Origin: a virus
IMG/VR virus record: IMGVR_UViG_3300021962_000569
Span: 1 to 26,019 of that record
DNA length: 26,019 nucleotides
Direction: 5' to 3' (one strand)
This document shows positions 8,861-25,779 of the stretch, one piece after another. A model generated the notes under the pieces. The model was given only the letters and a program-made list of their open reading frames with translations, did not search any database and was not told the DNA's origin. The position numbers and the translations under genes were made by a program. Position 1 is the first letter of the stretch. Each line of letters begins with the position of its first letter.

Positions 8861-8861
8861 A

Positions 8862-9248: not shown

Positions 9249-9256
9249 GATTTACC

Positions 9257-10180: not shown

Positions 10181-10186
10181 GTTTAA

Positions 10187-10195: not shown

Positions 10196-10203
10196 TTCAA
10201 TAA

Positions 10204-10238
10204 ACAAAAAAGCCCCCCAAGGTTTCCCAAGGGAGGCT
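10204..10238 (-). terminator. Rho-independent terminator after major capsid gene
   Basis: The minus strand has AGCCTCCC pairing with GGGGGGCT (eight pairs, one G-U), an inner GG-GAAA-CC mini-stem, then six T. It begins 15 bases after the capsid stop codon. It would limit expression of the tail genes relative to capsid, with the next promoter placed right behind it. Confidence 0.85.
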
Positions 10239-10253
10239 TCTAGCTACATGAGA

Positions 10254-11198: not shown

Positions 11199-11214
11199 TT
11201 TTTAACTCCAAAAA

Positions 11215-12153
11215 TTATAGGAACCGTTCAAATGCTGCTGCCGCGTCACGGACTTTGCCAGTTTGACGTAGCCGCTGCATCACTTGTTTATCCTGCGATG
11301 ACTTGGTGTTTGGAGATGAATTCCCAGGTTTCAGCATTTTTGGGGCTTGTTGGACTTTCTTTAAAGTCTCCGACTTGCCCTTCTGAAGTTCCCTAAATTT
11401 CATTCCCTCATACAAAGTCAGCACAGCCTTGTGGTCATACACTGAGGAGAGTTCTTGATCTGACCAACCTAAAGATTTTGCATATTCACGAATTTTGCTT
11501 CGGATTGCATCGCCTTTTGGTGTCGCCAGTTCTGGGATAACAGAAATGAGCTTATCAGCCTCAGATTTAATATGGTTTTGCAGTGCCTGCTGTTGTTCCG
11601 CTTGTTGCTGTTGTGCAATGCGGGACTGTTCAGCACGAATAACTGCTAACTGTTTCTCTCGCTGAGTTTGCTCTGCCACCTTTACGGCATAGCCGATGGG
11701 GTCTGTTTCCTTTAAAACTTCTAAATCCTCACCCTTGTTTTGCTGGCTCAGGAAGTTATCCAATGCCTGCAACCTTTGGGCGTATGCCGTTCGCTCTTGT
11801 TTAGCTTGCTCTATTTGAGCGCGTTCGGCTTCAACGGCTTTACGCTGCTCGGCTAGAACCTGAGATTTTTGGGTGTAATCCTTGCTTCGTTGGTAGCCGC
11901 TAATAAGTTCGTCAAGTTCTACCTCAACTTCCTCACCATTGACTTTGGCCTTGTATCGGGGTTTTACTTCCTCAACAGACTCATCCTCCAATAAATCAGA
12001 TTCCTCAACTTCGCTATTGGCTTCAAGTTCTTCGGTTGATTCTTCCGGTTGGCCCTCTGGGGCTCCTTCGTTATCATCCATCATTCCAAGAAACGCATCA
12101 GCGGCCTGGTTTACGTTTAGGTTTTCACTCCCGCTAGGGTTGGTGTTTTCCAT
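11215..12153 (-). CDS. Capsid scaffold protein, 312 aa
   Basis: A strongly acidic N-terminal third (about residues 25-65, Glu/Asp-rich) leads to a short motif (VELDELISGYQRSKDYTQKS), then a long Gln/Glu/Lys/Ala coiled coil (about 95-210) and a basic C-terminus. The ISGYQRSKDYTQK pattern and the acidic-coil-basic order are typical of scaffold proteins encoded directly upstream of SU10-like capsid genes. The basic C-terminal end normally contacts the inner capsid surface. No protease domain is visible in it or nearby, so removal without processing or by an unseen protease is open. The gene ends 16 bases before the capsid ATG. Confidence 0.85.
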   Translation of the reverse strand: MENTNPSGSENLNVNQAADAFLGMMDDNEGAPEGQPEESTEELEANSEVEESDLLEDESVEEVKPRYKAKVNGEEVEVELDELISGYQRSKDYTQKSQVLAEQRKAVEAERAQIEQAKQERTAYAQRLQALDNFLSQQNKGEDLEVLKETDPIGYAVKVAEQTQREKQLAVIRAEQSRIAQQQQAEQQQALQNHIKSEADKLISVIPELATPKGDAIRSKIREYAKSLGWSDQELSSVYDHKAVLTLYEGMKFRELQKGKSETLKKVQQAPKMLKPGNSSPNTKSSQDKQVMQRLRQTGKVRDAAAAFERFL

Positions 12154-12171
12154 GTGTCATCTCAGTTTTAC

Positions 12172-12205
12172 CCAGAAACCGTCTGGTGCGGGTGAGTTTC
12201 CTCAC
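12172..12205 (-). other. Two small hairpins in the scaffold gene leader
   Basis: The minus strand has GTGAG-GAAA-CTCAC (12192-12205, overlapping the upstream stop codon) and CCAGA/TCTGG with a five-base loop (12172-12186). Neither has a T-tract, so they are not terminators. They may be processing sites or protect the scaffold-capsid message. The role is inference. Confidence 0.35.
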
Positions 12206-12438
12206 AGAATCTTCCACTTCTTGTCTTTTATCATTGGCTCTGCGGCAATTCCCTGCAGATGCCCGACAAGAAGGTCTATTACTCGGACATTTCGATAAGC
12301 ACTTTCTCGCAAATCAAAATCATTCTCATTTGAGTTAATAATAACATCAATTTGTTGCTTTTTCAACACATTGATTACTTCTTGGAAAAACTCATCGTCT
12401 AGTAATGTTTGCGCTCGCTCAGATTTGTTTTCGATCAC
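12202..12438 (-). CDS. Small conserved late protein, 78 aa
   Basis: The translation starts at GTG (MIENKSERAQTLLDDEFFQE) one base after the previous TGA, with GAAAG as a modest ribosome site. It looks like a small helical protein: an ERAQTLLDDEFFQEVINVLKK helix, an Asn/Asp-rich turn, and ESAYRNVRVIDLLVGHLQGI. Phage late operons commonly carry a protein of this shape between portal-region genes and scaffold. I do not recognise a function. It ends 48 bases before the scaffold ATG. Confidence 0.65.
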   Translation of the reverse strand: MIENKSERAQTLLDDEFFQEVINVLKKQQIDVIINSNENDFDLRESAYRNVRVIDLLVGHLQGIAAEPMIKDKKWKIL

Positions 12439-12439
12439 A

Positions 12440-14014
12440 TCAATCTTTCAAAAAAATACCCGTTACAAAAAACTGTATTGACCGCCAAATAAATGTTTTT
12501 GCGGTCTTTGCTGTGCGCTTTGTTTTTGTTGCAAAACGCACAAAATCTCTAAATTCTTCGTAATAATTTTCGGCCTTGCCCGCCTTAATTGCGCGCAGGC
12601 CATAAAAGCGGTATCCCCTGCGGATAGCCTCTCCCCACCATTTATTGTGGAGTGTTTTGGTACACCACAAAACAGCTTTGCGCTTTTCTCGTGGTGTAAA
12701 TGAGCCATTGGCTACGGCGTGGGTCGCAATAACACAGCCGCCACCGCCGCTACCACCGCCGCCGCCGCTATCGCCGCCAAAAGAGACTGCATTGCCGCTG
12801 CTATCTGATACAACGCCGCCGCTGCTGGTGCCCACATAACCACCACCTTCCGCGCCAGAGATGCTGTCTGCGTACCCAGCGTCCAGCCCCGCACCAGAGA
12901 AGCCGCTACCCATCAGCCCGCCGGAGTCGGTTGCGCCACCGCCGCCATAGCTTTCAGCGCCGGAGATACTATCGACGTACCCTGCATCAAGTCCAGCGCC
13001 AGCAAAACCCGTCCCCATTAGACTTCCTGGGTCTGATACTGCTGCGGGAGCTTCGCTTACAACATTTAGATTGCTAATCAATTGTCCTAGCGGGTCTTGG
13101 GTGTTTAAGTTTGCAGCCATAGCCGCAGCCTCGCCCGCAGGGATTCCATAGCCCTGTGCTGCCGATTGAACGGCGTCATTTAACGAAAGCCCGTTTGCGA
13201 CAAGAGAATTAACTTGCTCGCCAATAGCGTACCCAATAGAGCCAACTTGATTGGCGTTTAGAGTACCGCCGCTTCTGCCAATTAGGGACTCTGCAATTTG
13301 TGAGATAGCTGGGTCTGTCGCAGCAGCCATGTACCCGTACAAGTTCTGTGGGTTGTCAAATTGGCTTGCAAGAGCTTGTGCGTTTTCTACGCCTTGCGGA
13401 GATTGACCAATAACACCCATTAAAGCCGACAACATCGGGTTTGCCGCCGTATTCGGTTGACCGCCGTAGGCAGACAGCGCAGTTTGCATTGCGTTTGCGC
13501 CAATGGCGTTTTGGTAGCCTTGCCCAGCGCCGATAAGCATCCCAGCGCCTGGGATAAGCTGATTGATGCCAGCCCTTACTAAGCCAGGAATTGGGTTAAA
13601 TAGACTGTAGTATGGGTCGCTTTGCCAAGCCTGAGACTCGGCACTGGAAACGGGACTGTAATCGCCGCCACCGTATAGTTCTCCGGTTGCAACTTGTTCG
13701 GCTACCTGTTCTGGCAAATTTGCTTGGTAGTCCGCTAAATTGAACTCGCCTGGGGTAAACCAAGATGGGGCAGCGCCGCCTACCGAAGGAAGTCCGATAG
13801 GGCCAGCAGAAGGGTCAATAAATCGTTGAGCGCCATAACTTCCTCCAGAATGTGTGAATGTCTGCGGGGTATATTGAGACTGGATGGCCTCAATGATACT
13901 ACCCAACTCCAATGGCTGCGGGGACTGGCCCTGCACCGCCTCAGCACCAACCATTGGATTAGCTGTGCCGCCTGTAACGGCTACAGGGAAGTAGGAAGAA
14001 AAATAGTCTGCCAT
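12440..14014 (-). CDS. Virion-region protein with CVIATH C-terminal domain, 524 aa
   Basis: Most of the protein is low in charge and rich in Gly, Ala, Ser, Asn and Gln. Residues 1-330 include a hydrophobic stretch near 140-160 (LVRAGINQLIPGAGMLIGAG). Two copies of a 26-residue unit with GxGLDAGYxDSISGAE follow (about 328-390), then a Gly linker and a distinct basic, aromatic C-terminal domain (about 427-524) beginning GGCVIATHAVANGSFTPREK, with LHNKWWGEAIRRGYRFYG and YYEEFRDFVRFA. The sudden change of composition suggests a fused domain. The Cys-Val-Ile-Ala-Thr start recalls the CFI-box-like C-terminal segments that follow Gly-rich linkers, but I cannot assign it firmly. It lies between portal and scaffold, so a capsid-internal or portal-associated role is likely. 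Confidence 0.72.
   Translation of the reverse strand: MADYFSSYFPVAVTGGTANPMVGAEAVQGQSPQPLELGSIIEAIQSQYTPQTFTHSGGSYGAQRFIDPSAGPIGLPSVGGAAPSWFTPGEFNLADYQANLPEQVAEQVATGELYGGGDYSPVSSAESQAWQSDPYYSLFNPIPGLVRAGINQLIPGAGMLIGAGQGYQNAIGANAMQTALSAYGGQPNTAANPMLSALMGVIGQSPQGVENAQALASQFDNPQNLYGYMAAATDPAISQIAESLIGRSGGTLNANQVGSIGYAIGEQVNSLVANGLSLNDAVQSAAQGYGIPAGEAAAMAANLNTQDPLGQLISNLNVVSEAPAAVSDPGSLMGTGFAGAGLDAGYVDSISGAESYGGGGATDSGGLMGSGFSGAGLDAGYADSISGAEGGGYVGTSSGGVVSDSSGNAVSFGGDSGGGGGSGGGGCVIATHAVANGSFTPREKRKAVLWCTKTLHNKWWGEAIRRGYRFYGLRAIKAGKAENYYEEFRDFVRFATKTKRTAKTAKTFIWRSIQFFVTGIFLKD
12851..13034 (-). repeat. Old in-frame duplication within the glycine-rich protein
   Basis: The stretches 12957-13034 and 12851-12927 encode nearly the same peptide (LMG[TS]GF[AS]GAGLDAGY[VA]DSISGAE) but differ at many third codon positions. 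This points to an old duplication with the protein sequence maintained. Confidence 0.7.
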
Positions 14015-14018
14015 AGTA

Positions 14019-16154
14019 TTACCCTGGAATTTCTATGTTAGAAGTAATGCCCGCACCTACCTTCAACGCTTTAAGTCTTGCCTCGGCCTCAAACTCCTGC
14101 TGTTTGAGGTTGAAGTGCATTTCCAACTTCTCCCGCTCAAGCTGCAGTTTTGACGCCTCTTTTTCTCGCATAATTTGCAATTCGGCGGCTGATTTTTCGC
14201 GTTGCAATTGCATATCAAGGGCGGCTTTTTGACGCTCAAACTCAAGGTCAGACTGCATCTTCTGCTGCTGCATTTGCATATCTGCCTGAAACTTGGCTTG
14301 CTGCGCCTGGATGTCTGCCTGCGTCTTTTGCATCATCATTTGAATTTCTGGCGGCATCTGCGGCTCTTGCGGCTGTGCAAGTTGCTGGTCTTGCTCTGGG
14401 CTGATGGGCTTAAAGAACTCGGCAGAGTCCTTGAACCCAGCGGCTTCGACCATACGACCGAGGACGCCCCTGTACTGACCAAACGACACAAACGGGTTGC
14501 CTGGGCCGTACTGGGCAAGCATCTGCTCCTGCTTAGCCAAAACCATCTGCAGCATCGCCATCTGCTGGTCGCGGTTGCCGTTACCCAGCCCGACGTTGAT
14601 CGAGATATCAAACTTATTGGCCCAGGTACGCGGATCGACACTGATGTAAGTTCCGCGCAAGCGAATGATCCGCTCTTTTTGCTGGTACTTAGACACCAAG
14701 TGCATGATGCCCTCAAACATCTCTTTTACGCCTGACTCAGCAAAGATGCGAGCAATCAATTCAATCTTGCCGGAGCCAGCCTGCTGCATCGAAGCAATAG
14801 CCGCAGCGGTGACGTTTTGCAAGATGTTGGCATCCAATCCTTGTGACATTTCTGTCACTCCAGTACGCTTCGCTTGCACCGAATCAAGGTACTGAAGCAT
14901 TGGGAACGACTGCGCCGCCATGTTTTGCACAGCCAACTGCTGAACAGCGCCAACAGATTTTGTGCGGATAACGCCGCCTGCCGTGGATGTCAGCAGATCG
15001 TCTAGGTTGACCTGGCCCTCAACAGCAGTGACCCTTGCGTTGTTGGTCAGATACATATTGTCCAGCATCTGACGAGTAATCGTGGTCTTAATTAGTTGCA
15101 GATCAACTGTGCGGTCTGCCAGAGAGTTGCCAAAGAACTTATGCGGAATGGGCAGCGGGCAGATTGAGTAGAACGGAACGTAATCTGTTTCCTCGTCACT
15201 CAGAATTTCGTTGCCAGAATAGAACACTTGATGAAGTTCTGCGATGCCGTCTTCATCTGCATCAAAGCGGATGTAGCACTCAAACACCTCGATTTCTTCC
15301 ATCGCGGTGTCGTTGCCTTGATTGTCTGGTTGCTCACCTGGGCTAAATCGGGCCACACGCTCCGGCGTATACGACAAATCGTTACTTGCTGGTAAAGCGT
15401 TGACTTGATCCTCATCAAACCCCATAGCGATCATGTCGCTTCTTGGAACCATCCGGCGATGAGCGCAAAACGGCGTGGTTTTGATTGAAACGCCAGATTT
15501 AGAAATCAAAAATTCTTCTGGCGGCACATTGTTTATTACAACTTTTCCAGAATCTATTTTTTTCTTAATTGTGATGTCGTGAATGTTGTAAGTAGCCGCC
15601 ATTCCAAATTGATCAAATACCGGAGCGCCAGTAGGATCAATGATTGGCTCAGTAACAGTGTCTTGCTCTACAACCTCAATGTCTTTATCTTGAAGTAACA
15701 GAGCGAGTTCGTCGTCTGAAAGACCTCGGTATGTCTCTTTGGTGACATCTTCCTTTTCTTCCCATACGGCTTTAACAATACCATTCTTCTGCAGCAACGC
15801 ATCAAAGAACCAATTATGCAGGATGGTTATGCCTGAATTATCTTTTAGGAAAATGTGATTAAGGTAGTCGGTGGCTTGTTTTGCACCAGCCTCATCACCA
15901 GGGCCAACTGGGTCAGCGACTACTATTTGATCTGAGCTTGTGAAAATTCGGATAAGCGACGGCAGAGCGCCATCAATAGCTTCGGCTACTTCGCCGGTAA
16001 CGATTTGTGATTTACCTTCGACTTCGTTGCCGTAAGGTTGGCGCAAGTATGCTTGAAGTGCCTGTTTGCGCTGCTCTACAGTTTCGCTTTCGATGAAACC
16101 GATGGAATCATCAATTGCTGCTTGAATCGCTGTTTTTAATTGATCCTGGCTCAT
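14019..16154 (-). CDS. Portal protein, SU10/P22-like, about 711 aa
   Basis: The start MSQDQLKTAIQAAIDDSIGF is chosen because GAAAGG lies five bases before this ATG. An in-frame ATG eight codons upstream (16178) has no such site. The N-terminal part has the portal pattern YLRQPYGNEVEGKSQIVTGE and then EAIDGALPSLIRIF. A middle stem region contains DNMYLTNNARVTAVEGQVNL and GVTEMSQGLDANILQNVTAA. Later come RLRGTYISVDPRTWANKFDI and GLGNGNRDQQMAM. The last 110 residues are an almost unbroken Gln/Glu/Lys coiled coil, as in the barrel of long P22-type portals. The protein forms the dodecameric ring for DNA packaging, working with the terminase encoded upstream. It overlaps the preceding small gene by 44 bases. 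Confidence 0.9.
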   Translation of the reverse strand: MSQDQLKTAIQAAIDDSIGFIESETVEQRKQALQAYLRQPYGNEVEGKSQIVTGEVAEAIDGALPSLIRIFTSSDQIVVADPVGPGDEAGAKQATDYLNHIFLKDNSGITILHNWFFDALLQKNGIVKAVWEEKEDVTKETYRGLSDDELALLLQDKDIEVVEQDTVTEPIIDPTGAPVFDQFGMAATYNIHDITIKKKIDSGKVVINNVPPEEFLISKSGVSIKTTPFCAHRRMVPRSDMIAMGFDEDQVNALPASNDLSYTPERVARFSPGEQPDNQGNDTAMEEIEVFECYIRFDADEDGIAELHQVFYSGNEILSDEETDYVPFYSICPLPIPHKFFGNSLADRTVDLQLIKTTITRQMLDNMYLTNNARVTAVEGQVNLDDLLTSTAGGVIRTKSVGAVQQLAVQNMAAQSFPMLQYLDSVQAKRTGVTEMSQGLDANILQNVTAAAIASMQQAGSGKIELIARIFAESGVKEMFEGIMHLVSKYQQKERIIRLRGTYISVDPRTWANKFDISINVGLGNGNRDQQMAMLQMVLAKQEQMLAQYGPGNPFVSFGQYRGVLGRMVEAAGFKDSAEFFKPISPEQDQQLAQPQEPQMPPEIQMMMQKTQADIQAQQAKFQADMQMQQQKMQSDLEFERQKAALDMQLQREKSAAELQIMREKEASKLQLEREKLEMHFNLKQQEFEAEARLKALKVGAGITSNIEIPG

Positions 16155-16296
16155 TTTTACCTTTCGGTGGTCGCCCAACTCGTGGCTTTGAGTCCGATTG
16201 TACTTCTTTTAACATATTTTCAAGCATTTCGATACGGCGCTCAAGATCATCGACACGCCTCGAATTTGTAATATCGCCTTGTTTCATTAAGTACAT
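16111..16296 (-). CDS. Small coiled-coil protein with AT-hook-like tail, 61 aa
   Basis: I place the start at the ATG in TAATG at 16296, where it overlaps the terminase stop by one base, with a GTGGGTGG stretch ahead. An ATG 14 codons earlier (16338) would overlap the terminase more deeply. The protein has a charged coiled coil (NSRRVDDLERRIEMLENMLK) followed by a basic RVGRPPKGK segment like an AT-hook and a Ser/Asn-rich end. Small coiled-coil genes between terminase and portal occur in related phages. A packaging accessory role is inference. It overlaps both neighbours, which supports coupled translation. Confidence 0.65.
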   Translation of the reverse strand: MYLMKQGDITNSRRVDDLERRIEMLENMLKEVQSDSKPRVGRPPKGKNEPGSIKNSDSSSN

Positions 16297-17546
16297 TAGA
16301 CCACCCACTTCGCCGGTTTGTTGATAGATTTGCTCCATGTAGATACATTTTCGTCTAGCCCAACAGCCGCGTAACGGAAGGCGTCTGCGGCGTGTGAATG
16401 TTGGTCATGCAGCGGCTTATTTGAAAACATCTTTGTGTTCGGGTCAACGTCGTACCTGTAGTGACGCAGATTTTGAATACCATCGGCGCAATTTGTTTCG
16501 TGAATATAACATCTATCCAAAAGTGTACGCGCCGAGTTAATGCCGTCAGCAACAGATAACTTTGGTGTAATTCTAATCGGCTTACCCATCGCCATAAGAA
16601 TATCCTTGACGGATTTGCCTGTCATATTCTTATTTTCAGCGTCGTGCGGCAACCACCAATCTTTATATACATAACCTTTATTTTCTAAAATATGCACATA
16701 ATGGTCAATAGTTTTTTGACAATTTTGATAAAAATCAACGATTCTGACCTCGCCGCCAGCGATGTACTGGATAAACCAGATAGATGTCATATCTGCCCAA
16801 CCCAAGTCCCAAAAGGTCTGGATCGGGATTGTCTTGTCAATTAAGAAGTCCCTGACCCTGTTTTGTTCCTGAGCTTTCCGTAACTCGTTGGCGTAAACAG
16901 CGCCATCCAGCATTTGGCGGGTGTGGCCTTCCCAGACGTTTAGGTAGGCGTCAATATCCTTTTGTTTTAGCTGCTCAAGCTCGTCTTTTAGGACTTCTGG
17001 GAACCAGGGGTTGTCGTCCCAATTAACCTTGCGAACAACAGAGTTCGCCGGAGGATTGACCACGAACCGCCGGTAAGTCTCATCGGTATCCAGGTCTGGG
17101 TTAAACGTCACCCAAATCTCTGACCCTGGCTTACGGACAGTTGGAATAAGCGTCTCCCAAGATGTCTTTGAGATTGCTTGGCCCTCCTCGCACCAACAAA
17201 TGTCAACCCCCTCAAAAGACTTAATTGAGGTGACGTTGTGCTTCAGGCCGACAAAACTGAACTCAGAGCCGTTTTTTCCATAGATGGCTGTGCGCTGCAC
17301 ATCGAAGAACGAGTCCAAGTCCATAGCCCTGATCTGGTCTGCCAACAAAGCGATTACGGAGTCAGAAATAGAGTTCTGCAGTTCACGGGCGCAAAGAACA
17401 CGCACAGGCGTCTTTACCGCCTTGGCGATCAATGCCCGAGCCACACCCCAGGATTTGCCGGAGCCTCGCCCGCCATAAAGGATTTTGTACCTGGACGGCT
17501 CGAACAGAAAATCTAGCTTTTCAGGGAAATCTAATTCAAGTTTCAT
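16296..17546 (-). CDS. terL: Terminase large subunit
   Basis: The ATP-driven packaging motor and genome-cutting nuclease. The Walker A motif GGRGSGKS is at residues 25-32, and a Walker B-type strand VDICWCEE is at 114-121 with the catalytic Glu. WVTFNP (145-150) fits the coupling motif. The C-terminal RNase H-like nuclease is marked by FWDLGWADMTSIW (about 240), LPHDAENKN (about 300) and HSHAADAFRYA (about 385-395), which supply the metal-binding Asp residues. Length (416) and motif spacing match the PBSX/terminase_3 type. The ATG overlaps the small-subunit end by 11 bases, the standard small-large-portal order. Confidence 0.95.
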   Translation of the reverse strand: MKLELDFPEKLDFLFEPSRYKILYGGRGSGKSWGVARALIAKAVKTPVRVLCARELQNSISDSVIALLADQIRAMDLDSFFDVQRTAIYGKNGSEFSFVGLKHNVTSIKSFEGVDICWCEEGQAISKTSWETLIPTVRKPGSEIWVTFNPDLDTDETYRRFVVNPPANSVVRKVNWDDNPWFPEVLKDELEQLKQKDIDAYLNVWEGHTRQMLDGAVYANELRKAQEQNRVRDFLIDKTIPIQTFWDLGWADMTSIWFIQYIAGGEVRIVDFYQNCQKTIDHYVHILENKGYVYKDWWLPHDAENKNMTGKSVKDILMAMGKPIRITPKLSVADGINSARTLLDRCYIHETNCADGIQNLRHYRYDVDPNTKMFSNKPLHDQHSHAADAFRYAAVGLDENVSTWSKSINKPAKWVV

Positions 17547-17874
17547 CAGGGCGAATCAGCTTGATTGCGATCTCGGAAACCTCGACCGGCCCGCCATCCT
17601 GACCAGTCACCTCGGTTCGAGACAACTTCGGGGCGGCATACTCAGCGAGCTTTGCCAACAAATCAAGCGCCCGATACGGGTCTGGCCTGCGGTCGTGCTT
17701 TTCGTCGCCATCCGCAACCGATTGGAGCCAGATAGAGACGTTTTCCTTGTTACCCTCTAGTAGAGCCCTAATGGTGTCCCTAAAGTCGTTGGTGACCCGA
17801 TTAGCGGCCCCCTTGGGCCTTCCTCGACCTCGATTGGTCAAGTTTGCAGAATTGCCGCTCTCTATTTTATTCAT
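17536..17874 (-). CDS. terS: Probable terminase small subunit, 112 aa
   Basis: The N-terminus has a basic RGRGRPKGAANRVTNDFRD segment, then a helical region with ALLEGNKENVSIWLQSVADG and DPYRALDLLAKLAEYAAPKL, ending SRTEVTGQDGGPVEVSEI. That combination (GRPKG..N motif, an eYaaPKL segment, TEVTG tail) is common in small proteins encoded just before PBSX-type large terminases and taken to be the DNA-recognising subunit. AAGGG lies about eight bases before ATG. It is the first gene of the late block, so the region upstream should contain the late promoter. A candidate on the minus strand (TTAACA, 15 bases, TAAACT) is weak. Confidence 0.8.
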   Translation of the reverse strand: MNKIESGNSANLTNRGRGRPKGAANRVTNDFRDTIRALLEGNKENVSIWLQSVADGDEKHDRRPDPYRALDLLAKLAEYAAPKLSRTEVTGQDGGPVEVSEIAIKLIRPDET

Positions 17875-17915
17875 GTTTGAATCCCTTACGGGTTGTTCAA
17901 GTAAAGTTTAAACAA

Positions 17916-17943
17916 TTGACTATTGTGTTAAGTCTATCATAAT
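17916..17943 (+). promoter_or_regulatory. Sigma70-type promoter for small acidic gene
   Basis: TTGACT (17916-17921) and CATAAT (17938-17943) are separated by 16 bases, each one mismatch from consensus. The expected start near 17950 lies only a few bases before the ribosome site AGGAGA. It sits in the 91-base gap between the first late gene and the plus-strand gene, so it may interfere with or balance the late promoter. Confidence 0.65.
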
Positions 17944-17965
17944 GGTGGATACACAGGAGAAGCTA

Positions 17966-18124
17966 ATGAAAATTGTAATAAACAACCCTTCAGACTACAT
18001 TATTGACGTTGAGCTTGATGATGACGCACTTGCTCTTTCGGATGACGATTTGGCTGGGTTTATTGATGATGCTATCCGCAACCTTCAGTCCATGCTACTG
18101 ACTATGCAAAATTCAATCGAGTAG
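17966..18124 (+). CDS. Tiny strongly acidic protein, 52 aa
   Basis: AGGAGA lies six bases before this ATG, so I start here and not at the ATG eight codons earlier (17942), which overlaps the promoter. The 52 residues contain ten Asp and two Glu but only one Lys and one Arg, with two acidic clusters (LDDDALALSDDDLAGFIDDA) and a hydrophobic C-terminal helix. There is no known family that I recognise. It is the only plus-strand gene left of 22.8 kb and stands back-to-back with the late operon, converging on and overlapping the end of the 503-aa gene by 12 bases. Acidic small phage proteins can be DNA mimics or inhibitors of host proteins. That role is inference. Confidence 0.7.
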   Translation: MKIVINNPSDYIIDVELDDDALALSDDDLAGFIDDAIRNLQSMLLTMQNSIE

Positions 18125-19624
18125 TCCACGCTTCTTTTGGTCAGCCAGGTAACGGTAGTACCGTTCTATCATTGGCTCATCAATAATTTGTGACACATCT
18201 TCTTTGCGTTTTTCAAGCGCGCCGAGAACCATGTTTCTGATGTCGCCTTTTTTCCCAGCAAATTCTTTGGAAAGAAGGCCAAACTTATCTGCCATCAAGA
18301 CTTCAGCGGGTATGCTTTGCCCCAACGTTCCAAGGTAATCGCCCGTAAAGTTTGTGTTGTAACTTCTGTTAAGTGATGGGAGTAGGCGCATCCCATCTGG
18401 CGTTGTCATTATCATAGTGTTGCCAACGTATCCTTTGGGGACATCCCGCAAGGCATCATCAGTCAAAGCTGCGCTCACATCTTCAGCATTGAAGCCAAAC
18501 CTTTCTTGGTTTGCTTTCATGTAAAAACGATCTGCGATGGCTTTTCTTAACTCTCCAGGGGTCGAGTCAATGCCTTCACCAGAATACATTTGGACTCGCC
18601 CTTCATCACTCATTATTCCTTTAAAGCCTTTGAATGGCTGGGTAATTTTTCTGTTTTCCCCAGTTCCTTTTGTAACTTTAAAGTTTCTAACGCTATCATC
18701 AAATGCTTTTATTTCAGATTTATTTAAATTTGCCTTGTCTGCAAAATTTAATAGAATTTCTGTGGGCATAACAGAAAAGTTTTCTGATAATGGCCCCATT
18801 GTGGTTGGCAAATGAATAATCTCGCCAGTACCTCCGGCGTTTATATTTTCCATTCTGGCAATAGCATCACGGTCTAAAATTCGTTTTGCTATACCAAGAT
18901 TCGATGCGCCAGCAATCCCTTGCTCAATATGGGCTAAATCTCTGGCGTAGTCTTGACCGCCATGTGTAATTACGGGCCGCGACAATAATTCATCAGAAAT
19001 GCCAGTAATTTTGTAATTTCTACTTGTGCTGTCCCAAGGCATTAGCATAATGCTTGCGCCTTGATAATCTTCAAGTTTTAGTGGCTTTTTTTCAGCCAAG
19101 CCACCAAGGAATTCTTTTTCAAATCTTGTTCCGACCGATGGGTCTGGCTTTAATGGAGTCGATGGCCTATAAACATAGCTGCGCGATCCTTGCGCCAGCC
19201 CCTCAAGCAAGCCAGCAGGCATACCGCCACGCTCCATGATTCTTGTGACCACAGGCTCTGCAGCTTTTTCAATATTCATGCCCTGGGCAATATACGCCTC
19301 TTTTGGCATTAAAGACATCGCCAACAATGGCTGCGCTTCTGGGATGATTGGTGGCAACTTAGATGCCTCAAAAGCCTTTCCAAGCAACCCAGCCATCTCG
19401 CCAGCAGTTTGAGTCCTCGGAGTGTATGTCAAAGCATTTGCAATGCGTTGCGCCTCTTTTTCTGCCTCTCGCGCACCTTCTTGTGTGCCGTATTTGTCAG
19501 CAGATTTAAGCAACCCAATAGGCACTCCAGCCAATTGACCACCCAAACCAGTAACTCCAGTTGTCAACAACTCAAGTAACCCAAGCGGGTATTCGATAGG
19601 ATTCCTGAAGTTAAAGATTGGCAT
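18113..19624 (-). CDS. Probable ejected/polyvalent virion protein, 503 aa
   Basis: The N-terminal 90 residues (GLLELLTTGVTGLGGQLAGV, then QRIANALTYTPRTQTAGEMA) match a hydrophobic-plus-helix pattern found at the front of very large phage internal proteins, often followed by enzymatic domains. The middle (about 180-330) has MPWDSTSRNYKITGISDELL, ITHGGQDYARDLAHIEQ and MPTEILLNFADKA, a pattern I associate with large polyvalent-protein domains. No protease, lysozyme or transferase motif is evident. Most proteins with this front end are far longer, so this may be a reduced version. It ends against the acidic plus-strand gene, outside the main late block. The ejection role is inferred. Confidence 0.7.
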   Translation of the reverse strand: MPIFNFRNPIEYPLGLLELLTTGVTGLGGQLAGVPIGLLKSADKYGTQEGAREAEKEAQRIANALTYTPRTQTAGEMAGLLGKAFEASKLPPIIPEAQPLLAMSLMPKEAYIAQGMNIEKAAEPVVTRIMERGGMPAGLLEGLAQGSRSYVYRPSTPLKPDPSVGTRFEKEFLGGLAEKKPLKLEDYQGASIMLMPWDSTSRNYKITGISDELLSRPVITHGGQDYARDLAHIEQGIAGASNLGIAKRILDRDAIARMENINAGGTGEIIHLPTTMGPLSENFSVMPTEILLNFADKANLNKSEIKAFDDSVRNFKVTKGTGENRKITQPFKGFKGIMSDEGRVQMYSGEGIDSTPGELRKAIADRFYMKANQERFGFNAEDVSAALTDDALRDVPKGYVGNTMIMTTPDGMRLLPSLNRSYNTNFTGDYLGTLGQSIPAEVLMADKFGLLSKEFAGKKGDIRNMVLGALEKRKEDVSQIIDEPMIERYYRYLADQKKRGLLD

Positions 19625-19627
19625 GAT

Positions 19628-19900
19628 TTACCACTTAACGCGGTTTGCCCAGTACGCAGCCGACATTTTGCCTTTGGCGATGTTTGCGGCGTGGCGAGAT
19701 TTAAAAGACTCGCGCCTACTTTTGTCGGCCTCTGACTCGCCTTCGCGTTTGGGCGAGCCGCTTACACCTTGCTGACCAAACCGAATTAGCTTTACTTCGT
19801 CACCAGACTTAGCCAGCACCGCATGGCTTTTGGTTGGATGACTAGGCGTTTTTTTGGGCTTGTTAAAGCCAGCAAACTCCTCCTTGCCGCGCTTAATCAT
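19628..19900 (-). CDS. Small basic conserved phage protein (DUF6321-like), 90 aa
   Basis: A Lys/Arg/Ser-rich protein: FNKPKKTPSHPTKSHAVLAK, then KLIRFGQQGVSGSPKREGES, and SFKSRHAANIAKGKMSAAYW followed by a short WANRVKW-type end. These landmarks agree with a short conserved phage family that I recall as DUF6321, function unknown. Its high positive charge suggests nucleic acid or virion DNA contact. The ATG overlaps the stop of the 53-aa gene by four bases (ATGA), and it lies three bases before the 503-aa gene, so these three are read together. Confidence 0.8.
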   Translation of the reverse strand: MIKRGKEEFAGFNKPKKTPSHPTKSHAVLAKSGDEVKLIRFGQQGVSGSPKREGESEADKSRRESFKSRHAANIAKGKMSAAYWANRVKW

Positions 19901-20058
19901 TTTTTCCTCTTACGAGCTTCGGACAACGCAATGGCGATGGCTTGCGCTGGGCTTTTTACAACTTTGCCGTCCTTGCCGCTGTGCAACGTACCGGCCTTGT
20001 ACTCGCCCATTACTTTCTTGACTTTGGATTGTTTAATCTTCTGATTCGTCGTCCCCAT
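19897..20058 (-). CDS. Small basic protein (DUF6496-like), 53 aa
   Basis: The open frame extends up to 20382, but only the last 54 codons look like a gene. GGAG lies six bases before the second of two adjacent ATGs, which I take as the start (the first is at 20061). The residues KVKKVMGEYKAGTLHSGKDG and KSPAQAIAIALSEARKRKK fit a small phage/bacterial family with a VMxExkxGxLxSG and QAIAIALSEA signature (DUF6496-like, from memory). Function unknown. The high Lys content suggests DNA association. It overlaps the Cys-rich gene by 26 bases. Confidence 0.75.
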   Translation of the reverse strand: MGTTNQKIKQSKVKKVMGEYKAGTLHSGKDGKVVKSPAQAIAIALSEARKRKK

Positions 20059-20479
20059 CATATTCTCCGTTTGAGTAATCTTCACCTTCTTCGGATCGAA
20101 CTTCGGCCTTTTCCCAGGCTTGGCAAGTACGCAAATTGTGGCAAATAAATTCAAATTTGCCGCACCAACCACGCCCGCCGCCATCCTTGTCGTAAGCATC
20201 TTCTGGGACTGCTTCCATTTCGGCAAGCATATCGGGAGAATCGTTGAAGTATTCGCAATTGGCGCACAAGTTGCGCTTGGCCTGCTCTGGGCTGATGCGC
20301 CAGACAGTTGCAATTTTTCGCCAGAAATCGGAGTTCGGTTGTTGTGTTTTTTCAGGCCCAAACATCCAGTGCTGCTTAACAAAGTCGCGGTTTTCGACGA
20401 CTTCTTTTTTCTTGATATCGCTTGATTTGTCTACAGCAATGATTTCAATAGAAATACTAGAGTCAAGTAGTCCTTGCAT
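20033..20479 (-). CDS. Cys-rich phage protein, possible metal or Fe-S site, 148 aa
   Basis: GGAG lies six bases before the ATG at 20479, so the extra 17 codons of the open frame upstream, which also overlap the next gene, are left out. A C-terminal module carries Cys at about 72, 75, 106, 113 and 119: LCANCEYFND, then WCGKFEFICHNLRTCQAWE. The CxxC...C...C...C pattern could bind zinc or an iron-sulphur cluster. I recall similar small phage proteins described as high-potential iron-sulphur-like, but this is unverified. The tail is very acidic (SEEGEDYSNGEYDGDDESED). Function unknown. It is placed between the HNH protein and the small basic genes. Confidence 0.72.
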   Translation of the reverse strand: MQGLLDSSISIEIIAVDKSSDIKKKEVVENRDFVKQHWMFGPEKTQQPNSDFWRKIATVWRISPEQAKRNLCANCEYFNDSPDMLAEMEAVPEDAYDKDGGGRGWCGKFEFICHNLRTCQAWEKAEVRSEEGEDYSNGEYDGDDESED

Positions 20480-20507
20480 GGTTTTCTCCAATTTGCCCCA
20501 TTTTATA

Positions 20508-20813
20508 TCAGGATTTTTTTTGTAAATCAAGTTCTTTCAATAGATTTGATGTTTTTTGATAGGCTCGCATCCACATCTCTTTTTTCTCGTTGCTGCTCAT
20601 TTTCCCCTGGTCTAGCTCGGCGTGGCACAAGAAACAAAGCGCCGCAACATATTCGTCGCTGGCCTTAATCCCTCGGCCCTTGCCATGCTCGGCCCAGTTT
20701 GAGTGTGCAGCCACAACAGTCCCGTCGTCTGCGCCGCAATTTTGGCAGGCAAGCAGTCTGCAAGCCTCAAGTCGCTTTTTGTTTCTAACGTACTTGGTCT
20801 TTGGGAACATCAT
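20508..20813 (-). CDS. HNH-type nuclease, YbcO/DUF1364-like, 101 aa
   Basis: A small zinc-finger-like nuclease: CQNC (Cys23, Cys26), VVAAHSNWAEHGKGRGIKAS with His37, and ALCFLCHAELDQG (Cys60, Cys63, His64). The order CxxC, A-H-S, CxxCH and the following E-L-D match the YbcO family (DUF1364) of phage recombination-associated nucleases, including an RGIKASD-type loop. The first of two adjacent ATGs overlaps the end of ninB by four bases, so the two are translated together. As in lambdoid nin regions, NinB and YbcO-like genes are neighbours and are thought to help recombination of phage DNA. Confidence 0.82.
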   Translation of the reverse strand: MMFPKTKYVRNKKRLEACRLLACQNCGADDGTVVAAHSNWAEHGKGRGIKASDEYVAALCFLCHAELDQGKMSSNEKKEMWMRAYQKTSNLLKELDLQKKS

Positions 20814-21217
20814 AGGTCAATCCCAGCCTCTGCCGCCCAAGCATGGAGGAATTCGATAAACTCCGAGCCTTGCTCCTTTGTGAACTTCCTGGTTTGCATA
20901 CCAAGTTGAACAATACCATCTCCCGTCAGATTCGGAATGACTTTTGCAGGATTTATTCCGGTGTCTTTGCAAAACTTATCCACCAGCAACCGTTTCCAGC
21001 TTTCCGCATCCCACTTTGCTCCAAGATGAGTGGCCTGTTTTGCTATCTCATCAATCAAAGCATGGTACATACTTTCTTGGTCGCGGCTTTTGCTTTCTTT
21101 TTCAATAATTAACCTTAGCTCATTACCGCTAGACAAATAACTTTGTATTTTGGGAAAAATGTTATTCCATACAGATTTTGCCTGCTCTGGACTTGTTAAC
21201 CTACGGGTGAACGCCAC
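20810..21217 (-). CDS. ninB: NinB-like recombination protein, 135 aa
   Basis: The sequence follows the NinB family: a helix with RLIIEKESKSRDQESMYHAL, an IDEIAKQATHLGAKWDAESW segment (W-x-x-E/D-x-W-K-R-L-L), PNLTGDGIVQLGMQTRKFTK and the C-terminal EFIEFLHAWAAEAGID. NinB (Orf of lambda) binds single-stranded DNA-binding protein and single-stranded DNA and helps recombination mediators. Length is normal for the family. The start lies inside the 3' end of the VRR-NUC gene (17-base overlap). Confidence 0.88.
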   Translation of the reverse strand: MAFTRRLTSPEQAKSVWNNIFPKIQSYLSSGNELRLIIEKESKSRDQESMYHALIDEIAKQATHLGAKWDAESWKRLLVDKFCKDTGINPAKVIPNLTGDGIVQLGMQTRKFTKEQGSEFIEFLHAWAAEAGIDL

Positions 21218-21479
21218 TTAGAACTCCAATCATGCGTAATGCGGCCTCTGGGCCATCGATCCTAGCCAATGTACCTCCGGCCCAATTTTCAAAAAACTCG
21301 GCTTGTAGCTTCGTTAAACGCTTTTTAGGGCCATCCTTGATCTCCACCAAGAAGGTGTGGCCCTTGTACCCAACCAAGAGGTCAACTGGCAACCCAATGA
21401 CCCAGACATAAGCACCAGCAGCCCGCAGCGCACTGATGATCTGTGCTTGATTGGCATCTACCCGTTTTGCGTATCTCAT
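21201..21479 (-). CDS. VRR-NUC / PD-(D/E)XK phage nuclease, 92 aa
   Basis: A single compact nuclease domain: an N-terminal helix MRYAKRVDANQAQIISALRA, a strand with GLPVDLLVGYKG (catalytic Asp33) and HTFLVEIKDGPKKRLT with Glu46 and Lys48 of the E-x-K signature. LTKLQAEFFENW completes the domain. This matches small phage VRR-NUC proteins that may cut branched or structured DNA. It belongs to a recombination group with NinB and the HNH protein. ATGA overlap with the upstream 68-aa gene. Confidence 0.85.
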   Translation of the reverse strand: MRYAKRVDANQAQIISALRAAGAYVWVIGLPVDLLVGYKGHTFLVEIKDGPKKRLTKLQAEFFENWAGGTLARIDGPEAALRMIGVLSGVHP

Positions 21480-21682
21480 AACAATAACTCCGTATCTGCA
21501 ATTTCACGCATATATTTTCTACACCTTTCATTAAATCCTTGGCCATAAAACTTAGTAAGTTTCTTAATATGTTTGTCAAGCCAATTATTTAAAAACTCTT
21601 TGTCGTGTTTTTTAGCCAATATATAGTAATTTACAACAAGAAATCTTGCTTCTCCTTTTTCAAGCATTACTCTTGAATTCAT
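21476..21682 (-). CDS. Small basic helical protein, 68 aa
   Basis: The sequence is rich in Lys and aromatic residues (GEARFLVVNYYILAKKHDKE, then KKLTKFYGQGFNERCRKYMR) with no motif that I can name. The ATG at 21682 lies within the preceding 54-aa gene. A Met five codons later (21667) would give an eight-base overlap with that gene's stop and could be the true, coupled start. It ends in an ATGA overlap with the nuclease gene. Confidence 0.65.
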   Translation of the reverse strand: MNSRVMLEKGEARFLVVNYYILAKKHDKEFLNNWLDKHIKKLTKFYGQGFNERCRKYMREIADTELLL

Positions 21683-21824
21683 CTGCGGCTCTTAAACTAA
21701 ATTTTTCTAGATCACTTTCTTCGATCTCTCCAACTAAAAACAATGCCATGTTTACAGTGCTTGGAGGAAAAGACACGCCGTCGAGAATTTTGTCTAGGAT
21801 TCGTTTTGCTTGTTCGTAGCTCAT
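21660..21824 (-). CDS. Small protein between DUF1376 gene and nuclease group, 54 aa
   Basis: Direct translation from ATG at 21824 gives MSYEQAKRILDKILDGVSFP and ends ...RAADEFKSNA. The ribosome site is strong (GGAGGAAAGC before ATG) and the ATG overlaps the TGA of the DUF1376 gene, so it is well placed in the operon. It is mostly helical and mildly acidic. I do not recognise a family. The 3' end overlaps the next gene by 8 to 23 bases depending on that gene's start. Confidence 0.7.
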   Translation of the reverse strand: MSYEQAKRILDKILDGVSFPPSTVNMALFLVGEIEESDLEKFSLRAADEFKSNA

Positions 21825-22609
21825 GCTTTCCTCCGTAGTGCGGCAAGTTTTTCAAGCTCAGCAAGCGATGGTGGCCTGACAAACTTTTCCTCTGCCTTCA
21901 GCCTTTCTAGCGTTGGGTCAGGCGTATTCCTTGAGGGGACTGTCATCCTTACAACGTCGGCCTGAATCTTTGGCGCGACCCACTCTGCCTTAAAAGCCTG
22001 CCAACCACGGACACAGCACTCAGTTAACGCCGCCTCAACCGTCCAACCAGCTTTCTTCGCCTCTTGAACAATCCCGTCAATGGCCCTCTGGGTGATGGGT
22101 GCGCGCTTTGCCTTACGCAGTGCCTTGAAATCTTCCCAAACAGAATCAGAAACGCCGTCAGGCGTTGCGACGGTAGTCGCTGTATTCTTTGGTTTATGGT
22201 TATTGGTTATTGGTTGTTGGTTATTGGTTGGTTGCACGGTCGTTGTACGCACCTTCAACGGGTGTTCAACGGGCGTTGGATTTTTGTTCAATGCTCGTTT
22301 AGCTGCAGATGCCTTCCCAGCCCTGGACGCAGCGTCTAATTGCTGGTGGTAATGCTCGATCTCTTTGTCGCACCGAGTGTGATGCCACTCATCTTCCTGC
22401 AGGGTAAAAAACATCTTCAGGATGCCAGAAATCTGATCCTGGCGCTCCCTCGCATTTACCTTCATGGAAAGCTCAAACAGAGAATTTGGCAGCGGCTGCT
22501 CTGTGTCGTAATAAAGCCACAGTAGCTTCAAGTAGATGCCAACTTCCTCGTTTGTCAAAAACGAAGTGTCCTTGATAAAGTCACCGATGTGATGCTGATA
22601 GTAGTGCAT
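21821..22609 (-). CDS. DUF1376 (YdaU-like) replication protein, 262 aa
   Basis: I start at ATG 22609 because AGGTGG lies four bases ahead and the family begins with this residue pattern (MHYYQHHIGDFIKDTSFLTN). A GTG six codons earlier is less likely. Residues 1-95 are the DUF1376 domain: EEVGIYLKLLWLYYDTEQPL, then DEWHHTRCDKEIEHY. A Gln/Asn/Thr/Pro-rich linker (about 115-145) is coded by a heptanucleotide repeat, and a second helical part follows (WEDFKALRKAKRAPIT, ECCVRGWQAFKAEWVAP). Such proteins sit beside helicase loaders in phage replication modules and probably help initiate replication. That function is inferred. It is the second gene after the Cro-like gene on this strand. Confidence 0.82.
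   Translation of the reverse strand: MHYYQHHIGDFIKDTSFLTNEEVGIYLKLLWLYYDTEQPLPNSLFELSMKVNARERQDQISGILKMFFTLQEDEWHHTRCDKEIEHYHQQLDAASRAGKASAAKRALNKNPTPVEHPLKVRTTTVQPTNNQQPITNNHKPKNTATTVATPDGVSDSVWEDFKALRKAKRAPITQRAIDGIVQEAKKAGWTVEAALTECCVRGWQAFKAEWVAPKIQADVVRMTVPSRNTPDPTLERLKAEEKFVRPPSLAELEKLAALRRKA
22195..22232 (+). repeat. Heptanucleotide repeat inside DUF1376 linker
   Basis: TATTGGT occurs as three exact copies and one single-base variant (TGTTGGT) in a row between 22201 and 22228, with shorter relatives on both sides. It codes for the Asn/Gln/Thr-rich linker. Seven is not a multiple of three, so gain or loss of one unit would shift the frame. Confidence 0.75.
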
Positions 22610-22711
22610 GAGTCCACCTTTTTTCACCCCTTGAAAGGAAACAGCGGCAGGAGAAGGGGAAACTCTTTTCGGTCAGGGGATCAATCCCAACCTAGCCGTG
22701 TCTCGAAAAAT

Positions 22712-22870
22712 TTAACGTCTAAACCACTCCGGCTTCAGCACCATAAGCTGCCAAAGCCTAGCCTGCGGAACGCCGAGCCCCCACTGGCTGATGGCCTGCG
22801 GAGTTATGCCAAGAATTTTAGCTAACCCAACTGCAGAGCCAGCCTTGTCTATCGCTTGTGCTTTGTCCAT
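22712..22870 (-). CDS. Cro / YdaS-like repressor, 52 aa
   Basis: Translation from ATG 22870 gives a 52-residue protein, MDKAQAIDKAGSAVGLAKIL then GITPQAISQWGLGVPQARLW, ending in PEWFRR. The order helix, turn (VGLAKILGI), recognition helix (TPQAISQWG), then VPxxRxWxLxxLxPEWF matches the YdaS/Cro family of phage helix-turn-helix repressors. The start codon has no convincing ribosome site. A -10-like element ends seven bases before the ATG, so the message may be leaderless, as the cI message from lambda PRM is. It is first in the leftward early operon and probably regulates the divergent promoters next to it. Confidence 0.8.
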   Translation of the reverse strand: MDKAQAIDKAGSAVGLAKILGITPQAISQWGLGVPQARLWQLMVLKPEWFRR

Positions 22871-22876
22871 GACCCA

Positions 22877-22905
22877 ATGTTAAGCCAACTTTCGCAAAAA
22901 AGCAA
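22877..22905 (-). promoter_or_regulatory. Promoter of the Cro-like gene, probably leaderless
   Basis: On the minus strand TTGCTT (22900-22905) and TAACAT (22877-22882) are 17 bases apart. The -10 is followed by six bases and then the ATG, which would put the start point at the A of the codon. Confidence 0.5.
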
Positions 22906-22918
22906 CTCATCGCAAAAA
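22886..22918. promoter_or_regulatory. Two operator-like direct repeats
   Basis: CAACT..CGCAAAAA (22886-22900) and CAACT...CGCAAAAA (22903-22918) repeat with a 17-18 base period across the -35 and spacer of the Cro-like promoter. Their position and spacing fit repressor binding sites. Confidence 0.45.
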
Positions 22919-22922
22919 TTTT

Positions 22923-22931
22923 TGTTACACT
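22923..22931 (+). promoter_or_regulatory. Extended -10 promoter for candidate small RNA
   Basis: TGTTACACT is an extended -10 element, with no clear -35. The same core TACACTGCAG recurs in the downstream promoter at 23291-23300. The expected start, seven bases on, is G22938, which is exactly the first base of a hairpin. Confidence 0.5.
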
Positions 22932-22937
22932 GCAGCC

Positions 22938-23001
22938 GCCACTTAGTGGCATATCTCCTTGATCTTTACCCCGCCCTGGGCAACCTTGGCGGGGTTTTTT
23001 T
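22938..23001 (+). ncRNA. Candidate regulatory small RNA, about 64 nt
   Basis: The predicted transcript begins with a hairpin (GCCACTTAGTGGC, 22938-22950), continues with an unpaired linker containing UCUCCUUG (22954-22961) and ends in a strong terminator hairpin with seven U. There is no plus-strand gene upstream for the terminator to serve, which is the main reason to propose a short RNA. The linker complements AAGGAG-type ribosome sites. It matches eight bases at 24849-24856 (CAAGGAGA, before the 58-aa gene) and eight at 23698-23705 (AAGGAGAT, before the 51-aa gene). The place next to a Cro-like gene recalls the OOP RNA of lambda, though no sequence relation is claimed. Confidence 0.5.
22969..23001 (+). 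terminator. Strong rho-independent terminator
   Basis: CCCCGCC (22969-22975) and GGCGGGG (22988-22994) form a perfect seven-pair stem followed by seven T. The opposite strand has no T-tract after the stem, so it acts on plus-strand transcripts. Confidence 0.88.
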
Positions 23002-23013
23002 GTCCAAGTTTGC

Positions 23014-23220
23014 GGGGGGGCGCAATAGCAAACCGCAAGGGGTTGCGCTAGGGGTTGCGCCCTAGCGTTTACCAATGAAAAGTGCCCAAAACCGCAAGGG
23101 GGGCGCAATAGCAAACCGCAAGGGGTTGCGCTAGGGGTTGCGCCCTAGCGTTTACCAATGAAAAGTGCCCAAAACCGCAAGGGGGGCGCAATAGCAAACC
23201 GCAAGGGGTTGCGCCCCCCC
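23014..23220. repeat. 83-bp tandem repeat array with internal hairpins
   Basis: Two identical 83-base units (23021-23103 and 23104-23186) are followed by a 28-base partial third unit. Each full unit contains CGCAA-GGGG-TTGCG, able to fold into a five-pair hairpin, and CGCTAGGG...CCCTAGCG with a six-base loop, plus further CGCAA/TTGCG words. The whole array is bounded by a perfect 12-base inverted repeat, GGGGGGGCGCAA (23014-23025) and TTGCGCCCCCCC (23209-23220). It is much richer in G and C than the flanks. An AT-rich stretch follows at 23228-23266. The design would fit an iteron-type origin, a protein-binding array or a REP-like element. I cannot choose between them from sequence alone. Confidence 0.85.
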
Positions 23221-23268
23221 TAACAGTCAGTCAAGTTTTATCTTTACAAAACTTTACAATTCAAATGC

Positions 23269-23296
23269 TTGACAGCGTGCAACACTGTGCTACACT
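23269..23296 (+). promoter_or_regulatory. Rightward early promoter
   Basis: A perfect TTGACA (23269-23274), a 16-base spacer and TACACT (23291-23296) preceded by TGC (extended -10). The start near 23303 gives a short leader with AAGGGG before the first ATG at 23328. It probably drives the whole rightward operon. Confidence 0.75.
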
Positions 23297-23327
23297 GCAG
23301 TCATCGTAACAAACCAAGGGGAACAAA

Positions 23328-23513
23328 ATGACAAACTTAACCAACATCAAACACAACATATATGACATCAAGAAAATTATTTGCAATGCTCAATGCTTGA
23401 TGGAAATTGGTGTTGAACCAAAATCCGCTATCAAGCAAGCGGCATCTAATTGTGGTGTGCCTTATGGTAATGAGATGGGTAAGGTTGTAAAAGCAGTGTT
23501 ACGTTTGATTTAA
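23328..23513 (+). CDS. Small first gene of rightward operon, 61 aa
   Basis: A clear ribosome site (AAGGGG, six bases before ATG) and a strong promoter support this gene. The product (NIYDIKKIICNAQCLMEIGV, then EPKSAIKQAASNCGVPYGNE) is basic and helical, with two or three short helices that might form a small DNA-binding fold. I do not recognise a family. As the first early gene next to the control region, a regulatory role is possible, but this is inference. Confidence 0.72.
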   Translation: MTNLTNIKHNIYDIKKIICNAQCLMEIGVEPKSAIKQAASNCGVPYGNEMGKVVKAVLRLI

Positions 23514-24866: not shown

Positions 24867-25039
24867 ACTGCTGTGATGACTACGGCAACTGCCGTCAAGG
24901 GCGTGACTGCCCTGTGCGAAAAGCCAAAGAACTGTTGAAGAACGAAGACAAGAATCCGGAAGAAAGCTCTGTTGCTCTGGTTGCTTGGATATTCATTGTC
25001 CTGATGCTTGGCCTGATGACACTGAGGAGTTGTTTATGA
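24863..25039 (+). CDS. Cys-rich small membrane protein, 58 aa
   Basis: AAGGAG lies seven bases before the ATG at 24863, which overlaps the methyltransferase stop (ATGA), so the longer frame from 24836 is not used. The N-terminus has four Cys within 16 residues (MNCCDDYGNCRQGRDCPVRK), perhaps a metal site. A charged linker is followed by one membrane helix (about 36-54, VALVAWIFIVLMLGLMTL). The cytoplasmic or outer position of the Cys cluster is not known. I recall similar short phage proteins with a C..C..G.C.QG..CP.R pattern but no function. Confidence 0.75.
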   Translation: MNCCDDYGNCRQGRDCPVRKAKELLKNEDKNPEESSVALVAWIFIVLMLGLMTLRSCL

Positions 25040-25779
25040 CAACACAACTTGTTCGTTCATCCATGAAATTGATGGCTGATGCCGGGGTCGATATTGTTGA
25101 CATGAAATGGTTTGATATGACTGGTGCAGTTGAAGACAAGCAAAAAGCCAATTTAGACCCGGTGATGACGCATAGACCGCCGTTTGGCAAATGTTTTGTT
25201 GCTTGGCAAGGCAAGACCCATCACCACCCAAGCTACGAGGTTCTGATGCTGGTGGCGGGAGAAGACCCCGATGAAGGGATTTCTGTGTCCATGTGGAAAG
25301 GGCCATCTGGAACACGCTTGCGCCCTATTCCTGCAATGTTTTACTTCATTGAAGGTGACGAGATTCGTTATGGTTCCGTCAACGAAGATGAGCCGGTAGA
25401 CAAAGAACTTGCTGAGTTGATGCTGGCGCAGATTGGAGCTTGGTACAGCGGAATGGATCGCCGTATGGAGGCATACATTCCATCGGTGCGCGACACGTTC
25501 ACCAACCGCCGAAAGATTCAGCAGGGCAAGCTGCCGACCTACGACTGGACAACGGTCTGGATTGAGCCAGCCAAGCCTCGATCAGAGAACAAGGGGGGCA
25601 CACACGCATCACCTCGCTTGCATGACCGCCGTGGTCATTTTCGGAGGCTTGCAAGCGGAAAGAATGTTTGGGTCAAGTCCTGCAAAGTGGGGGACGCCAG
25701 CAAAGGTGTGATATTTCACGACTACGCCATTAAAGGAGAACAAAATGACAAAAGACGAAGCTCTCGACTTAGCGCTTGA
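25036..25779 (+). CDS. Conserved phage protein of unknown function, 247 aa
   Basis: AGGAG lies seven bases before the ATG at 25036, which overlaps the previous stop (ATGA); the frame upstream to 24985 is not needed. The first half is mixed alpha/beta (TQLVRSSMKLMADAGVDIVD, then MLVAGEDPDEGISVSMWKGP). The C-terminal part has LHDRRGHFRRLASGKNVWVK followed by CKVGDASKGVIFHDY, a Gly/Arg/Lys-rich pattern common at the end of phage proteins of this type. It probably contacts nucleic acid, but no function can be stated. The last 35 bases overlap the next gene and contain that gene's ribosome site. Confidence 0.78.
   Translation: MTTQLVRSSMKLMADAGVDIVDMKWFDMTGAVEDKQKANLDPVMTHRPPFGKCFVAWQGKTHHHPSYEVLMLVAGEDPDEGISVSMWKGPSGTRLRPIPAMFYFIEGDEIRYGSVNEDEPVDKELAELMLAQIGAWYSGMDRRMEAYIPSVRDTFTNRRKIQQGKLPTYDWTTVWIEPAKPRSENKGGTHASPRLHDRRGHFRRLASGKNVWVKSCKVGDASKGVIFHDYAIKGEQNDKRRSSRLSA

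Follow-up and report, generated by a model that had tools for sequence, protein, structure and literature searches.

A hairpin-rich 83-bp tandem array between the divergent early genes of a freshwater-type phage, and a candidate origin in the neighboring replication gene

Introduction

What does a perfect tandem repeat built of hairpin-forming words do in the early control region of a bacterial virus? The window analyzed here, a linear virus record 26,019 bases long, belongs to a freshwater-type bacterial virus and carries such an array at 23014-23220, between two oppositely facing early gene sets. A sequence-only reading of this DNA had proposed that the array could be an iteron origin, a multi-site protein target, or a REP-like element acquired from a host.

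Construction of the Array

As that reading had described, the array (61% G+C) is made of two exact 83-bp units followed by a partial third of 34 bp. TRF reports a tandem repeat of period 83 at 23015-23214 with 2.4 copies and 100% matches, and a repeat search finds two identical 83-nt copies, starting at 23015 and 23098, and a 34-nt sequence that recurs unchanged at 23015, 23098, and 23181. A 200-bp perfect tandem repeat is not attributable to chance. A CRISPR-like repeat array does not fit, as the entire 83-bp unit is identical, with no differing spacers. Each unit (23015-23097 and, with the same sequence, 23098-23180) consists of a 34-bp segment A and a 49-bp segment B, and the layout of the whole is G-A-B-A-B-A-CCCCCC. 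The G+C content of the unit is 58%, against 48% for the window.

The nested inverted repeats of CGCAA/TTGCG words noted earlier are located within the array as CGCAA-GGGG-TTGCG (three times), CGCTAGGG-GTTGCG-CCCTAGCG (twice), and GGGCGCAA...TTGCGCCC (twice); the dyad CGCTAGGG-N6-CCCTAGCG occupies 23046-23067 in its first copy and 23129-23150 in its second. Starts of CGCAA/TTGCG words number 14 in the bin 23001-23500 and 0-4 in all other 500-bp bins, a clustering that is partly a by-product of tandem repetition. The only matches to TAGGG-N4..8-CCTA in the window are the repeated TAGGG-N6-CCCTA dyads of the array. Shorter repeats are nested inside the unit, namely the 12-bp AAGGGGTTGCGC/TAGGGGTTGCGC and the 13-bp AAACCGCAAGGGG, the latter present twice per unit.

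The two ends of the array (23014-23025 and 23209-23220) had been taken for bounding inverted repeats. Their 12-nt arms, GGGGGGGCGCAA and TTGCGCCCCCCC, are indeed 100% complementary, but the partial third copy and the C-run that follows it (23181-23219) already form a hairpin of their own, with an 11-bp stem and a 17-nt loop (GGGGGGCGCAA-17 nt-TTGCGCCCCCC), so that the arms are a consequence of tandem repetition, and pairing of the array's two ends is not required for hairpin formation.

The Early Control Region

The array is placed in the spacer between a Cro-like regulator gene (22712-22870, minus strand; P22_Cro, 8.8e-12) and a predicted divergent early promoter; counted from the start of cro up to the first start codon on the rightward side, this spacer spans 457 bp (22871-23327). 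An O-like replication initiator or primosomal gene with DUF1376 is also on the minus strand (21821-22627). Between the array and the rightward promoter is an AT-rich stretch (23221-23268, 27% G+C); the predicted promoter itself (23269-23296, plus strand) has the consensus-like form TTGACA-16-TACACT with a TG before the -10, and small genes and then a C5 cytosine methyltransferase follow rightward of it. The setting claimed by the sequence-only reading, between divergent operons and beside a replication gene and an AT-rich stretch, is upheld.

Upstream of cro are two direct TCGCAAAAA repeats, 18 bp apart and the only two in the window (22892-22918, plus strand). An intrinsic terminator with a 7-bp GC stem, a 12-nt loop, and T7 follows at 22969-23001 (plus strand); its loop exceeds the maximum of the terminator scan, and it was called by reading the sequence. 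A possible second extended -10, TGTTACACT, was picked out by eye at 22923-22931 (plus strand), and the 13-mer at 22923-22935 recurs at 23288-23300 with 12 of 13 positions matching. Together, the extended -10 and the terminator (22923-23001) may produce a short rightward transcript, in the manner of a small-RNA unit. Farther rightward, 25036-25776 encodes a 247-aa protein that has no family match in PHROGs or Pfam and has relatives in many viral contigs, at up to 97% identity over 233 residues.

The Spacer in Related Loci

Related loci were examined in sets of 80 by DUF1376, 80 by terminase, and 80 by the 247-aa protein, together with two phage records; one pass over the DUF1376 loci took in 41 of the 80. 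A Cro match was present in 27 loci (25, plus 2 from a later set), from which L111 and L118, whose contigs start inside cro, were dropped, and the 25 loci used represent 22 distinct spacers. The distance from cro to the first start codon that a regex finds preceded by a ribosome-site-like motif is usually about 130-165 bp in these loci, with outliers of 24, 84, 85, and 85 bp in four, 171 bp in one, and none in one. The CGCAA-N4-TTGCG hairpin occurs in 0 of the 25 spacers, and TRF finds no array like the 83-bp one in 162 related loci; the arrays of period 60-111 in L149, L155, L201, and L223 are of sequences other than that of the window's array.

What the relatives' spacers do often carry is a central TAGGG...CCTA or CTTA dyad, in 20 of 25 by a loose pattern and in 13 by a strict one. 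Exact TAGGG-Nn-CCCTA was counted by locus (these counts, like those for iterons and codons below, are not deduplicated and do not represent independent phages): in the 80 DUF1376 loci a spacing of 5 accounts for 16 matches, spacings of 6 and 8 for 1 each, and a spacing of 9 for 2, and in the 80 terminase loci a spacing of 5 accounts for 7 and a spacing of 4 for 5, with zero in both sets at the remaining spacings within 0-12. The window's dyad, CTAGGG-N6-CCCTAG, resembles that of the relatives, but its spacing is 6 rather than 5 or 4; moreover, the relatives' dyad lies close to the -35 box, on its upstream side, whereas the window's array is 50-250 bp away.

The TAGGG-N4/5-CCCTA dyad also stands upstream of many phage promoters in the freshwater group, across loci L062-L310 (for example, L106 near 5697 and L136 near 4313). 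Cro was rejected as its reader, the dyad persisting beside Cro proteins with different recognition helices. Given its presence at many other promoters and with varied Cro helices, the relatives' dyad is probably not a Cro operator, and a host or other factor is the likelier reader.

A Possible Multi-site Target or a Neutral Expansion

The reading that we tentatively prefer, judged from position and from comparison with these relatives, takes the array for a lineage-specific block that was recently duplicated within the early control region and that would act, if it acts at all, as a multi-site DNA target. The hairpin-forming segment A (about 34-40 bp) and the adjoining 49-bp segment B would have been duplicated recently in tandem, perhaps via the two 13-bp words in each unit. 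If functional, the array would most likely work as duplex DNA, with the CGCAA/TTGCG half-sites and the CTAGGG-N6-CCCTAG dyad binding several copies of a regulator, either phage Cro or a host protein, and regulator bound there, some 50-250 bp ahead of the rightward promoter, might then modulate or insulate both early promoters.

Several observations count for a multi-site target: the array lies where an operator array would, between cro and the divergent early promoter; the two direct repeats at the cro promoter accompany the CGCAA/TTGCG cluster; and the dyads are unique in the window while the relatives' spacers often carry a similar one. The terminator and the promoter put the array outside the transcripts of both predicted operons, which favors a role at the level of DNA. 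Counting against it are the spacing of the dyad, by which the array lacks a site matching the one conserved in relatives, the closer approach of that conserved dyad to the -35, the lack of any relative with the array, and the perfect identity of the units, which suits a recent neutral duplication equally well. The earlier suggestion of a multi-site protein target therefore survives in part, its position and repeated dyads being compatible and its dyad spacing discordant; position argues for an early-control role, and the missing conservation counsels caution.

The close rival, itself a realistic possibility, is a neutral or transient tandem expansion, in which slippage or recombination multiplied a hairpin-prone, GC-rich insert that has no function and varies in copy number. 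Beyond the identity of the units and the lack of the array in the relatives' spacers examined, this explanation draws on the shorter repeats nested in the unit, on the failure of either segment to find a match in IMG/VR (a 25-mer of segment B and a 17-mer of segment A each gave 0 exact matches), and on the tandem occurrence of GGGGTTGCG in unrelated viral contigs, mostly in long open frames and in several reading frames. It accounts less readily for repeated dyads that are well formed and for the precise placement of the array, in a compact phage genome, within the early control spacer, next to the promoters and not over them.

With respect to these short words, tandem GGGGTTGCG, often with a 12-bp period, was seen in coding-looking stretches of unrelated viral contigs L003-L060, and the several frames in which it is read give AQPL, VAQG, and ATP repeats. 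The tandem word GGGGTTGCGC, which occurs in 33 viral stretches, looked like the mark of an element family, but its clusters are mostly within long open frames, and no such family is claimed for it.

A more elaborate proposal, and an improbable one, is that the early-promoter spacer is a tunable switch, in which hairpin-bearing operator units would be gained and lost by tandem duplication and their copy number would set the balance between the replication operon and the divergent early operon.

A Candidate Origin in the Replication Gene

That the array is itself a replication origin or an accessory replication region, its units serving as iterons or as single-strand initiation hairpins, is unlikely. 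The O-like gene adjoins it and an AT-rich stretch lies alongside; a check by cumulative GC skew, suggested with the original claim, gives a minimum at 22501-23000, which is near the array but coincides with the switch in gene strand and is near both candidate sites, and hence does not discriminate between them. The repeats of an iteron origin would be kept with their cognate initiator in relatives, and the array was not found in relatives that keep the same Cro and O-like pair (0 of 25 spacers, none in 162 loci), which tells against the iteron origin of the sequence-only reading. A conserved block of iterons inside the O-like gene, about 0.7 kb away, explains an origin better, and with this better-conserved candidate start site in the neighboring gene, the array is probably not the origin.

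The evidence for that block, at about 22178-22312 (minus strand) in the DUF1376 gene, is of two kinds. It contains 22-bp and 21-bp iterons, and in the DUF1376 genes of relatives a period-22 array precedes one of period 21; TRF detects one or more arrays of period 20-22 or 33 inside this gene in 63 of 80 loci, and arrays of period 18-24 number 90 inside it (1.60 per kb) as opposed to 6 outside (0.0098 per kb). Synonymous conservation is raised as well. When only residues identical between the window and a relative are counted, the codon is the same as that of the window at 1799 of 2271 positions (0.79) within residues 106-150 and at 3626 of 8639 (0.42) elsewhere, and identity is higher inside this segment in 80 of 80 loci, with a peak of 0.94 at residues 136-150. 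Such conservation is not readily accounted for by constraint on the protein alone and points to a cis-acting DNA element, and iterons and synonymous conservation together place a likely origin, a lambda-type intragenic candidate, at about 22178-22312. Among the papers listed in a literature search, none was seen to describe the 83-bp array or to place an origin within a DUF1376 gene; PMC5795418, in the part of its text available, only lists the DUF1376 domain.

Other Explanations of the Array

Less probable still is that the array is transcribed and works as a string of RNA hairpins, whether as a decoy, an attenuator, or a leftward terminator bank. Folding z-scores are -4.06 and -1.85 for RNA of the plus and minus strands and -1.80 and -2.95 for the corresponding DNA, and the first of these values, together with three weak terminator-like hairpins on the minus strand, speaks for structured RNA. 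Tandem palindromes, however, fold well by construction, and the array has no match in Rfam, no promoter able to drive its transcription turned up, and a strong rightward terminator stands just before it and a rightward promoter after it.

A REP- or BIME-like element taken from a host genome is very doubtful, although the array is palindromic, intergenic, and tandem. Among 398 Pseudomonadota genomes, a sample outside which the host may lie, the array matches one, and that match is the phage contig itself. The hairpin word CGCAAGGGGTTGCG occurs in 36 of the 398, at 38 places and at most two per genome, whereas the controls gave about 17 places for the reversed pattern and 6 of 398 genomes for one matched hairpin; the word is somewhat commoner than the controls and is not dispersed like REP elements, so the REP-like element entertained earlier finds no support in these genomes. 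By blastn the array has no match in phages and three weak records in plasmids, and in IMG/VR the dyad 16-mer has a single match, to a stretch of an unrelated contig that looks coding.

The 22-mer GGGGTTGCGCTAGGGGTTGCGC is found in only one genome_contigs record, of the same phage, a contig filed under an alphaproteobacterial MAG. Over 16,465 bases this contig shows 100% identity to window 6627-23091, and its end falls 77 nt inside the array; window 23180-26019 matches none of the other contigs of that MAG, its sole match being the repeat on the same contig. These features fit the binning of a phage contig into the MAG, together with a break in assembly at a tandem repeat, and they name no host. 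At about window 6627-6638, the far end of the contig (L229) contains a stretch of N and is longer than the window by about 70 bases, which may reflect a scaffold gap or a repeat difference. A de Bruijn assembler with a k-mer shorter than the repeat unit would stop at such a place, and the break in the second assembly indicates that the locus is repetitive there and that the copy number of the array is uncertain. That the copy number is an artefact, the real unit count being below or above that of the window, is the least probable explanation of all. The break itself indicates more than one copy and hence a real repeat, and the two assemblies may not be independent.

Significance

Taken alone, this phage-specific tandem repeat of the early control region is a modest curiosity. 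The main value of checking it is that it exposed a conserved candidate for an intragenic origin across a large freshwater phage family whose members have a DUF1376 replication protein. This candidate is directly testable and, if true, would tell where many uncultured phages have their origin.

Comparison with Known Systems

In the pR operon of lambda, cro and then O lie on one strand, with operators upstream of cro. The array resembles a lambdoid early operator region in its place, a spacer with a Cro gene and then an O-like gene on one side and a divergent early promoter on the other. It differs in consisting of identical 83-bp units rather than short related operators and in having no overlap with the predicted -35 and -10. 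With the dyad of the relatives, described here from freshwater phages, it shares a G-run/C-run dyad in the same spacer, but with a spacing of 6, within a tandem array, and farther from the promoter. REP and BIME elements are likewise arrayed, GC-rich, intergenic palindromes, yet they occur as many dispersed copies, and the array's word is not dispersed in any genome sampled. The lambda-type intragenic origin is a different case. OriLambda lies in the middle of the O gene, according to the available part of PMC3985674; the array stands outside that kind of gene and did not turn up in relatives, and the likeness belongs instead to 22178-22312, where conserved iterons are found in the middle of an O-like initiator gene.
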